The notes beneath the pieces were generated by a model. The model saw nothing but the letters and a program-made list of their open reading frames with translations, was not told the origin of the DNA and did not search any database. DNA of 64,000 bases from Promethearchaeota archaeon (GTDB taxonomy: Archaea; Asgardarchaeota; Lokiarchaeia; Sigyniarchaeales; SOKP01). Shown in pieces: positions 19,034-63,426 of the stretch (positions are counted from its first letter, which is position 1; each line of letters opens with the position of its first letter). The position numbers and the translations under genes were made by a program. The stretch spans positions 1 to 64,000 of the forward strand of contig RDOA01000005.1 in assembly GCA_011364925.1 (NCBI GenBank). Direction: 5' to 3'.

Positions 19034-19048
19034 AGGTGGATTATTATA
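19034..19048 (+). promoter_or_regulatory. Shine-Dalgarno plus probable ATA start of the D-aminoacylase
   Basis: AGGTGG at 19034-19039 is followed by ATT ATT ATA GAG. The reading frame between an in-frame TAA (19004) and TTG 19127 contains no ATG, GTG or TTG. ATA at 19046 lies 6 nt after AGGTGG and sits exactly where amidohydrolase N-termini begin; ATT 19043 is the alternative. Confidence 0.5.
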
Positions 19049-20665
19049 GAGCTAGATATCCTTATAAAAAATGGGAGAATCGTCAATGGAACGGGAAATC
19101 CTTGGTATCCTGGAGAAATTGGAATCTTGGATGGAAAAATTATTCATATTAGTCATAAAATAAAGGAAAAAGCAAAAAAAGTAATTAATGCAAATGGACT
19201 TATAGTATGCCCTGGATTTATTGACATCCATTCTCATTCTGATTACTTTTTACCATTTTCTAGAACTTTAGAGTCAACACTTTATCAAGGTATTACAACT
19301 ACCATTGTAGGAATGTGTGGAGACGGAATGGCTCCAATACCTGAGGGAAGGGAAGAAGAATTCAAAAAGTTAATGTCAACTATGGACCCTGCCCTTGCTC
19401 AATTAGATTATCCATATCACACGTTTGGTGAATATTTAGATTATAATGAAAGAAAAAGAAATTCTTCAAACTTAATATTTGCTATAGGATATGGAAATTT
19501 AAGATGGGCGGGAGGTCAAGGTGGTGAAAATAGACCTGCAACTCGAGAAGAACTAGAGAAAATGAAGTTCTACTTACGTGAAGCATTAGAAGCAGGAGCC
19601 TTTGGAATGAGTACAGGATTGATCTATGCACCTCAAGTTTTTGCCACTACTGGAGAAATTATAGAGTTAGCTAAAGTTGTAGCAGAGTATAATGGATTAT
19701 ACTTTTCACATATCCGAGATGAAAGTTCATCAATACTAGATGCAATAAAGGAAGTAATAGAAATTGTTGAAAAATCTGGTTGTGTTGGGGGACAAATTGC
19801 TCATCATAAAGTATCTGGTGAAGCAAATTGGGGAATGAGTAAGGAAACTCTAAAATTAATTGAAGATGCAAATAATCGAGGGATTAATATTGCTTACGAC
19901 CAATACCCATATAATCGAGGATGGTCAAATTTGATGACAGCTCTTCCTCCATGGGCCCGCGTAGGATCATATGAGGATATTTTGGAACGTATAAAAAAAC
20001 CAGAAATTCAGGAAAAAATTAAGCAAGACATCGAGACCGGAATTGAAGGTTGGGAATCTTGGATTAAAAATAATGGATTTCATAATATTTTTATCTCAAC
20101 TGTTGGGAGTGAAAAATGGAAAGATACAGTGAGTAAAAGTATAACTGAAATTACAAAATTAAAAAAATTTCCTGATGATTTTACAACTTTTTTCCAAATT
20201 TTGATTGATAATAATTTATCTGTTAATATAACAATTAGAAGCATGGCTGAAGACGATATACGAAGAATTATGGTTGGTCGATATCATATGGTTGGTACTG
20301 ACGGTGCTGGAATTCCTGCTGCATATAGTGCTGGTGCGTTTCATCCCCGATTTTTTGGCACTTATCCACGAATACTTGGTAAATATGTGCGAGAAGAGAA
20401 GCTGCTGTTATTAGAAGAAGCGATTAGGAAAATGACATCGTTTCCAGCTCAAAGATTAGGATTAAAAGATAGAGGGCTCATTATGGAAAGATATTGGGCA
20501 GATATCGTCATTTTTGATCCCGATAAAGTAAAAGATACCGCGACATTTGAAGATCCATATCAACTTCCAGAAGGTATCCCATATGTAATCGTAAATGGAG
20601 TAATTGTCATTGAAAACGGGGAAAAAAATAAGAAAGCACCAGGGAAAATTATCCGTCGAGTCTGA
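19046..20665 (+). CDS. D-aminoacylase (N-acyl-D-amino-acid deacylase), amidohydrolase superfamily
   Basis: Removes acyl groups from N-acyl-D-amino acids; zinc amidohydrolase. N-terminal small beta domain (ELDILIKNGRIVNGTGNPWY, then strands), metal ligands HSHSD at about His62/His64, SHIRDESSS and QIAHHKVSG for further ligands, GTDGAG with the catalytic Asp, and C-terminal WADIVIFDPDKV. The N-terminal strands are essential to the fold and are encoded upstream of the first permitted start (TTG 19127), so I place the start at ATA 19046 behind AGGTGG. 539 residues, normal size. Probably in peptide or D-amino-acid catabolism. A prolyl/dipeptide hydantoinase-like role is a weaker alternative. Confidence 0.9.
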   Translation: MELDILIKNGRIVNGTGNPWYPGEIGILDGKIIHISHKIKEKAKKVINANGLIVCPGFIDIHSHSDYFLPFSRTLESTLYQGITTTIVGMCGDGMAPIPEGREEEFKKLMSTMDPALAQLDYPYHTFGEYLDYNERKRNSSNLIFAIGYGNLRWAGGQGGENRPATREELEKMKFYLREALEAGAFGMSTGLIYAPQVFATTGEIIELAKVVAEYNGLYFSHIRDESSSILDAIKEVIEIVEKSGCVGGQIAHHKVSGEANWGMSKETLKLIEDANNRGINIAYDQYPYNRGWSNLMTALPPWARVGSYEDILERIKKPEIQEKIKQDIETGIEGWESWIKNNGFHNIFISTVGSEKWKDTVSKSITEITKLKKFPDDFTTFFQILIDNNLSVNITIRSMAEDDIRRIMVGRYHMVGTDGAGIPAAYSAGAFHPRFFGTYPRILGKYVREEKLLLLEEAIRKMTSFPAQRLGLKDRGLIMERYWADIVIFDPDKVKDTATFEDPYQLPEGIPYVIVNGVIVIENGEKNKKAPGKIIRRV

Positions 20666-54720: not shown

Positions 54721-55242
54721 TTAGTACATTTCTGACTTCGAAAACAATAGCGCGAAACAACCGTAAAATATTCCGTTTACAACCCCGCTTATTAAGAATG
54801 CGATCAATGTCATAGTTGGGATGAGTACTGTTATACCATAAAAATTCAATAGTGTAACAGGATTTACGAACGCTAATACGCCTAAAGCTGCAGCACCAAT
54901 CAATGCAGCGAGCATCCAACCTCCAAAGCTACCTCCTTTACCGTCCCCCGTGCGTCCAGCTACTAATGCCGCAACAAATGGAGAAACTATAAATCCAATA
55001 TTTTGAATTAACGAAGCACCAAATAAACCGGAGGAAATATCAGTAAATATTGAAGTGATCACATTTCCCGGCATGTTAATAACAGGGCCGAAGAATATGA
55101 GTAATAAAATTAACGGATCGCTACTTATAGCGCTAAAAAGGAGGTTTAAATCACTACTTATAGTTTGCGCAATTATAACAAATAGGAAGTTTAAACCAAT
55201 AAAAGCCAGTAGACTGAAACCTAGCGCTTTACCTAGCCCGAT
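54721..55242 (-). CDS. Membrane protein of unknown function, non-ATG (ATC) start inferred
   Basis: Protein read from ATC 55242 is 173 residues, beginning MGLGKALGFSLLAF. It has five to six membrane helices and a Gly-rich loop AGRTGDGKGGSFGGW (around 95-110). The first available ATG (55074) would cut off the first two helices. In-frame TGA 55248 blocks anything upstream; ATC 55242 is 9 nt after GAGG (in AGAGGTTGATG). ATG 55249 is out of frame by one base across AAAAA (an A5-to-A4 change would join it). Function unknown; convergent with the 349-residue membrane protein. Confidence 0.6.
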   Translation of the reverse strand: MGLGKALGFSLLAFIGLNFLFVIIAQTISSDLNLLFSAISSDPLILLLIFFGPVINMPGNVITSIFTDISSGLFGASLIQNIGFIVSPFVAALVAGRTGDGKGGSFGGWMLAALIGAAALGVLAFVNPVTLLNFYGITVLIPTMTLIAFLISGVVNGIFYGCFALLFSKSEMY

Positions 55243-61265: not shown

Positions 61266-61538
61266 CTAATATTTTCTTAATTGTTTATCTCGTTGGCTAA
61301 CTTGATGACCGTGAATAGCACAACTTATGCAGTAATAATTCTTCTTACTGGGGGTCTGAATAATAGTCCCTTCTTTCTTGAGTTCTGTAAACATTCTCCC
61401 ATCGACTAATGAAACTCGTCTTGTGACAGCTTTTGCTTTACTACGAGGTACAAAACGCCCACACTTATAACATTGAACGCGATTATAATGACCCTTGCTT
61501 GAGCCACTTTTTCCGCCACTTCTTCTTTTTTTAGGAAT
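61266..61538 (-). CDS. rps26e: Ribosomal protein eS26, ATT start inferred
   Basis: Small-subunit ribosomal protein, 90 residues. Reads MPKKRRSGGKSGSSKGHYNR (ATT read as Met), then VQCYKCGRFVPRSKAKAV and NYYCISCAIHGHQV, matching eS26: basic N-terminal tail, zinc ligands C23-C26 and C70-C73, and the CAIH hallmark. The family N-terminus Met-Pro-Lys-Lys falls exactly on ATT 61538. No ATG, GTG or TTG occurs upstream as far as an in-frame TGA at 61607; the first ATG is residue 49. CTGAT lies 4 nt upstream, the same spacing as GTGAT before ATG at 7636. Established: eS26 occurs in TACK and Asgard archaea. Confidence 0.93.
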   Translation of the reverse strand: MPKKRRSGGKSGSSKGHYNRVQCYKCGRFVPRSKAKAVTRRVSLVDGRMFTELKKEGTIIQTPSKKNYYCISCAIHGHQVSQRDKQLRKY

Positions 61539-61662
61539 AAAAATCAGCTTTTTTTTCTGTTTTCTACATCTTAGAATAAGACAAACCTTAAAAAATTTAT
61601 TCTTTCACTGTGAAAATTAGCATAAACGTACTCATTTTTAGCTTTATTTCACGAAGAAATGG

Positions 61663-63114: not shown

Positions 63115-63426
63115 TTACTTTACCTTTCTCTTTTTAAAGCGAGCAATTAAATAAAAAGCACTCATCATGATTGTTATCGAAAGTACAATTCCGAGAATTC
63201 CAGCAATATAATCATTATTAAGCCAAGATAAAATAGGAATCCAAGGTGAAAATAGATTATCGAGCCAATCTTCACCATGATAATCAATTAAGACTCTTTC
63301 TAAACCATCAGGAGCATTAGAAAGAAATCCAATCCTAAATCCTACTGATATTACTAACATTAATGAAGTGATAACGATTAATATAACAATTAATGGCCAT
63401 TTATTCCTTTTTAATATGCTTATTAT
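63115..63426 (-). CDS. cbiN: CbiN/PDGLE-domain cobalt-transport subunit, ATA start inferred
   Basis: Accessory subunit of the Co2+ ECF importer. 103 residues when read from ATA 63426. The PDGLE motif (APDGLERV) follows helix 1, and a second helix lies at the C-terminus, ending in a Lys/Arg tail. ATG 63360 lies inside helix 1, so it cannot be the true start. Upstream to an in-frame TGA (63450) there is no ATG, GTG or TTG. GGGAG (63438-63434) is followed at 7 nt by ATA, which overlaps the cbiM stop as TAATA, a stop/start overlap like the classic TAATG. Co-translated with cbiM. Confidence 0.9.
   Translation of the reverse strand: MISILKRNKWPLIVILIVITSLMLVISVGFRIGFLSNAPDGLERVLIDYHGEDWLDNLFSPWIPILSWLNNDYIAGILGIVLSITIMMSAFYLIARFKKRKVK

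Follow-up and report, generated by a model that had tools for sequence, protein, structure and literature searches.

In the window, that is, the whole 64,000-nucleotide stretch of Promethearchaeota DNA analysed here, the gene for ribosomal protein eS26 raises the question of where and how its translation begins. On the minus strand its frame runs from a TGA (61607-61605) through 22 codons, none of them ATG, GTG or TTG, to an ATT (61538-61536) followed by CCT AAA AAA AGA AGA, and it closes with a TAG (61268-61266). After its upstream stop the frame thus offers no canonical start ahead of the conserved N-terminus, as a preliminary description of this DNA had stated, and the earliest one in frame is an ATG at residue 49, so that gene callers requiring ATG, GTG or TTG miss the gene. 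Asgard archaea are the nearest known prokaryotic relatives of eukaryotes, and to our knowledge their translation initiation has hardly been studied. The reading favoured here, with a probability of about three in four, is that eS26 is an intact gene starting at AUU, that it belongs to a class of Lokiarchaeia genes with AUU, AUA or AUC (AUH) starts, and that this class is accompanied by a feedback loop on initiation factor aIF1. The features concerned are listed in Table 1.

Table 1. Positions of the eS26 gene, its leader elements and other AUH-start genes in the window
Feature	Position	Strand	Basis or remark
eS26 (S26e) CDS	61266..61538	minus	90 codons + TAG, read from ATT; translation, NCBIfam PRK09335, PDB 9fs6_b, pN/pS
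eS26 start codon ATT	61536..61538	minus	aligned codon across 54 family loci
TGA stop preceding eS26, in frame	61605..61607	minus	read from the sequence
GCTGAT element, SD-like, one mismatch to GGTGAT	61543..61548	minus	conservation in two genera
Out-of-frame ATG-TAG in the eS26 leader	61564..61569	minus	31 nt upstream of ATT; present also in G021 (L010/L032)
AAATTTTTTAAGG, possible archaeal TATA/BRE	61586..61598	minus	by eye
Amidohydrolase	19046..20665	plus	start ATA 19046-19048; ATG in 17 orthologues
Membrane protein	54721..55242	minus	start ATC 55242-55240; ATG in the G009 orthologue
PDGLE-domain protein	63115..63423	minus	start ATA 63423-63421; ATG in the G021 orthologue

The earlier claim that the gene begins with ATT at the Met-Pro-Lys-Lys of the family is borne out by two alignments. 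Met-1 of the solved archaeal eS26 in PDB 9fs6, chain b ('MPKKRENRG'), pairs with residue 1, the ATT (phmmer, E=4e-14), and residues 1-89 of the NCBIfam S26e model (PRK09335) align over their full length with residues 1-89 of the translation; the score, 81.7, is below the equivalog cut-off of 118, and the alignment still spans 1-89. The protein thus matches the family from end to end, MPKKR N-terminus included, and carries the two CxxC pairs (zinc) as CYKC and CISC. Full-length homology, the conserved N-terminus and the CxxC pairs are shared with archaeal and eukaryotic eS26, whereas the start codon and the leader are unusual, and nothing else is. Codons 2-47, compared with 22 relatives, give a mean pS of 0.71 and a pN of 0.107 (ratio 0.15); synonymous change is about sevenfold the nonsynonymous one, which argues that the gene is intact and protein-coding from codon 2 onwards. 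One eS26 copy is present in the genome of origin (completeness 100), in agreement with the earlier view that a pseudogene is unlikely. A single draft genome always invites the suspicion of an assembly error, of a pseudogene or of a second, genuine eS26 elsewhere. These explanations are contradicted by the strong purifying selection, by the single copy and by the same ATT in many MAGs, and they can be given practically no weight. An assembly error in particular is ruled out for this codon: the ATT recurs in independent GenBank MAGs produced by various assemblers and is found in most close relatives, not only in this assembly.

For comparison, whole-genome and contig searches supplied 54 eS26 loci from the GTDB family to which this archaeon belongs. 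The start codon is ATT in 28 of them, ATA in 3, ATG, TTG or GTG (NTG) in 22 and GTT in one. At exactly this codon ATT is either conserved or interchanged with ATG and TTG; it is kept across two genera and occurs sporadically beyond them, and close relatives with ATG or TTG also exist (L002, L008, L009, L011). On the tree, parsimony requires about 10 changes from ATH to NTG or back, of which at least 4 fall on well-supported branches; the count is rough, since the alignment has few columns. In the remaining families a phylum-wide pattern survey returned almost only NTG. Outside the family, ATT is seen in L081 (family f2), with a TAA immediately followed by the ATT and sisters (L082, L085) that have ATG, and in L133 (family f17), which reads AAGGTGAACCCTT ATT CCT with a strong SD and an in-frame TGA two codons upstream.

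These loci also bear on a start slightly upstream, at the CTG 61547-61545 or the ATT 61544-61542 of GCTGATTTTTATT, which would give eS26 a short N-terminal extension. The window and many relatives do have these two codons in the eS26 frame, at 9 and 6 nt before the start. In L015, L016, L018, L048, L058, L068 and L010, however, the spacing differs, so that the codons fall into another frame or are separated from the gene by an in-frame TGA. The conserved protein, moreover, opens at PKKR, and this explanation is very improbable. An in-frame stop lies directly or two codons before the ATT in seven loci (L015, L016, L018, L048, L058, L068, L081), where no other near-cognate codon, CTG or upstream ATT, is therefore usable. 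It is no more credible that an AUG is supplied by RNA editing, by a small intron or by a frameshift from an upstream ATG. The out-of-frame ATG-TAG, shared by the window and the G021 leader, could be cited for it; however, other species with ATT have no common upstream ATG, and sisters alternate ATG and ATT at one codon, as a start codon would. The codons themselves, their conservation and the lack of alternative starts can be read directly from the loci, and translation of eS26 very probably starts at AUU.

The leader of eS26 is variable and A/T-rich outside one short element. The sequence GCTGAT stands, exact and 4-6 nt before the ATT, in 24 of the 26 ATT-start loci of two genera, the exceptions being L063 (GTTGAT) and L010 (GCTGAA). 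An altered anti-SD pairing with GCTGAT was considered and ruled out: the 16S anti-SD GGATCACCTCC is canonical in 36 of 36 genomes matched by pattern, the genome of origin included. GCTGAT thus amounts to an SD that carries a single, constant mismatch to this canonical 16S 3' end. Strong SDs are rare in a 347-kb sample of the genome, too small for genome-wide SD statistics. The pattern GCTGAT-N4-6-ATTCC was also considered as a regulon signal and rejected, the additional matches read falling inside coding sequences.

The element leads to another explanation, autogenous control, in which free eS26 would bind the GCUGAU leader, or ribosomes bearing eS26 would be unable to use SD-like pairing, the AUU merely lowering the ceiling of expression. 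In S. solfataricus, eS26 sits on the exit channel of the 30S subunit, where it wraps the 16S 3' end, competes with SD duplexes to their exclusion and inhibits leadered mRNAs (PMC11698992), and yeast Rps26 reads mRNA position -4 (PMC8880767). By analogy with these two roles, eS26 might feed back on the GCUGAU leader of its own gene, and the near-invariant GCTGAT, in which a constant C disrupts pairing as an SD, fits the idea. On the other hand, the element is absent from some relatives without ATT (L002, L040), and folding of the leader compared with shuffles gave no structure beyond chance (z 0.83). Autogenous control is on balance rather unlikely.

Initiation at AUH appears to extend well beyond eS26. 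The amidohydrolase of the window reads AGG TGG ATT ATT ATA GAG CTA GAT, against ATG GAA TTT GAA or ATG GAT TAT GAA in its orthologues, and its family match opens at ATA 19046; the membrane protein reads AAGAGGTTGA TGA AAA ATC GGG, against AAT ATG GGA in G009. Scoring of an 18-gene ribosomal-protein cluster across 20 relatives covered 336 gene-genome pairs. In fifteen of them ATG, GTG and TTG are lacking all the way from the upstream in-frame stop to the conserved N-terminus. A frameshift artefact accounts for one; in the remaining 14 (4%) the codon at the homologous start is always ATT or ATA. They comprise uS8 (TAA AAA [ATA] ACA AAT in 7 scored species, ATG in sisters), uL15 (ATA or ATT, 4 species), uS14 (ATT or ATA, 2 species) and uS3 (ATT, 1 species). 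Against a background of 9.5%, 14 ATH codons out of 14 would arise by chance with a probability of about 5e-15, or 8e-6 if the cases represent five independent events. A comparison of ORF lengths with one other Asgard genome (G056) gave a difference in the expected direction, not decisive by itself. That AUH starts are a general feature of Lokiarchaeia is highly likely from these comparisons, in which all data are MAG sequences, the genome-wide frequency rests on samples and the counts in relatives are not independent. Related to this, the preliminary description was right about eS26 and incomplete in scope, eS26 being one of several AUH-start genes.

In the genome of origin, a TetR-like gene (L150:3562-4224, minus) and an MFS gene (L147:2036-3262, plus), whose starts were placed from domain matches, can be grouped with a gene of unknown function (L153:8973-9497, minus). 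All three have ATT or ATC after an SD-like sequence and 34-62 codons without a canonical start, and the TetR and MFS genes are probably AUH-start genes.

Among the AUH genes, that of aIF1 is a more conserved and more telling non-AUG case than eS26. Its product belongs to the SUI1 family (NCBIfam score 106.6, above the cut-off of 98; match to PDB 4mo0), and in the genome of origin the gene begins TGA AAA AAG AGT ATT AAA GAC GAC. ATT is the start in 21 of 21 species of the genus and also in genera g2, g3, g5, g7 and g8; of the two g4 genomes one has ATT and the other (G026) ATC, while in g6 the codon is ATA, preceded by a GTG at a distance of four codons. When the third base of the pattern was left free, the 35 genomes matched had T in 34, C in one and G in none. 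Elsewhere in the class the codon is ATA in f2/g13, f5 and f7, TTG in f2/g10, f2/g15 and f6, and ATG in f4; beyond the class, GTG is used by 18 of the 20 f15 genomes (L287-L306), and ATG by f16 and f20. The GTG of f15 is another weak start on aIF1. AUU or AUA starts of archaeal eS26 or aIF1 are not reported in the open-access literature that was searched, most subscription papers lying outside the search.

What is known of aIF1 in start-codon stringency comes from Sulfolobus and Pyrococcus and does not extend to Lokiarchaeia. The factor of S. solfataricus is reported to discriminate against non-canonical starts (PMC6237735, PMC8211752); given this activity in other archaea and the ATT on its own gene, the fidelity factor itself is written with the kind of start that it rejects there. 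In bacteria, infC, encoding IF3, has an AUU or AUC start and is autoregulated (PMC5472188). A conserved start of the AUU type on the gene of a start-fidelity factor is likewise found in aIF1, and would permit self-repression in the same manner (PMC5472188), whereas aIF1 is not homologous to IF3 and the archaeal loop is deduced by analogy. In eukaryotes, eIF1 autoregulates through an AUG in poor context (cited in PMC6237735). It is a SUI1 homologue of aIF1, and both have a suboptimal start on their own gene (PMC6237735), but eukaryotes weaken the context of AUG while Lokiarchaeia change the codon to AUU, AUC or AUA. From these parallels, autoregulation of aIF1 through its AUU start seems rather more probable than its absence. 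An alternative for aIF1 would be termination-coupled re-initiation at AUU, which is possible. In most genomes of the family (L160:10195-10225 and relatives) the aIF1 leader contains, in another frame, a mini-ORF of GTG, four codons and TAA or TAG whose stop overlaps the ATT; it is missing from G026 and G033.

In the mechanism proposed, the initiator Met-tRNA, with its CAU anticodon, would read the AUU of eS26 with a mismatch at the third position, translation presumably beginning with methionine, and the weak SD-like GCUGAU 4-6 nt upstream would position this tRNA on AUU. Three groups would make up the AUH-start class: scattered cases amounting to a few percent of the genes in the ribosomal cluster, the eS26 genes of most species in two genera, and the aIF1 genes of nearly the whole family. 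Because aIF1 makes archaeal ribosomes reject non-canonical starts, AUU on its own gene would give a homeostatic loop: at low aIF1 stringency would relax, AUU initiation would increase and more aIF1 would be made, and at high aIF1 its own AUU initiation would be shut down, as in infC/IF3. The AUH-start genes, eS26 among them, may in this manner be tied to the level of aIF1. Many tRNA genes of the genome of origin contain introns (L272-L284), and no initiator or other Met tRNA was recovered from it with RF00005 or ARAGORN, with introns allowed or not.

A simpler explanation is that Lokiarchaeal ribosomes are just lax at the third start position, so that AUG drifts to AUU or AUA where other signals are given and eS26 is not regulated by its codon. 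AUH starts in unrelated genes (amidohydrolase, PDGLE-domain protein, membrane protein, uS8, uL15, probably TetR and MFS), the frequent codon switching in eS26 and its ATG or TTG in close relatives all speak for such laxity, and if AUH starts make up a few percent of the genes overall, the AUU of eS26 may be due to tolerance alone. However, eS26 (ATH in 31/54) and aIF1 (nearly all) stand far above the 14/336 of the ribosomal cluster in these non-independent samples (Fisher p about 1e-20 for eS26, relatedness uncorrected), and a single substitution would give back AUG, yet the ATT of aIF1 persists over many genera. The excess in eS26 suggests that its AUU is kept, more than tolerated, and tolerance as the whole explanation is unlikely. 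Regulation of eS26 through the AUU, beyond mere tolerance, is nevertheless a somewhat doubtful proposition. More tentative still is the idea that in Lokiarchaeia AUU, AUA and AUC work together as a second set of functional start codons. The level of aIF1, itself written with such a start, would then set a single threshold for all AUH genes, and for eS26 the GCUGAU leader would bring a further control, acting through the part of the 16S rRNA, its 3' end, over which eS26 lies.

The class as favoured here differs from infC in that AUH starts are spread over many genes, eS26 included. The eS26 product itself acts in the mRNA exit channel and, in contrast to IF3, is not known to check start codons; its known role being channel occupancy and mRNA choice (PMC11698992, PMC8880767), it is not counted as an infC-type member. 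A closer parallel for the coupling of another gene to the fidelity factor is Streptomyces sigR, whose GTC start is repressed by IF3 (PMC5472188), although there a single bacterial regulatory gene is concerned and here a ribosomal protein and many genes of an archaeal class. Some of the start codons in use in Lokiarchaeia are apparently ignored by gene-finding software; should AUH starts prove general, routine annotation in this lineage shortens or drops genes, among them marker genes for ribosomal proteins and initiation factors. With a conserved AUU on aIF1, the feedback loop of infC would have been invented a second time, independently, in the eIF1 lineage, and the stringency of start-codon choice in Asgard archaea becomes open to direct tests.

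Some loci of the relatives are peculiar in themselves. Genomes G004 and G012 have two eS26 and two aIF1 copies each and are probably mixed bins. The eS26 frame of L080/L051 (G034) and the uS3 frame of L203 (G030) are broken near the N-terminus, probably by sequencing indels. In L019 (about 1480-1510) and L053 (G031) the N-terminus of eS26 is apparently doubled, an out-of-frame copy with ATG being followed by one in which GTT occupies the place of the start codon.
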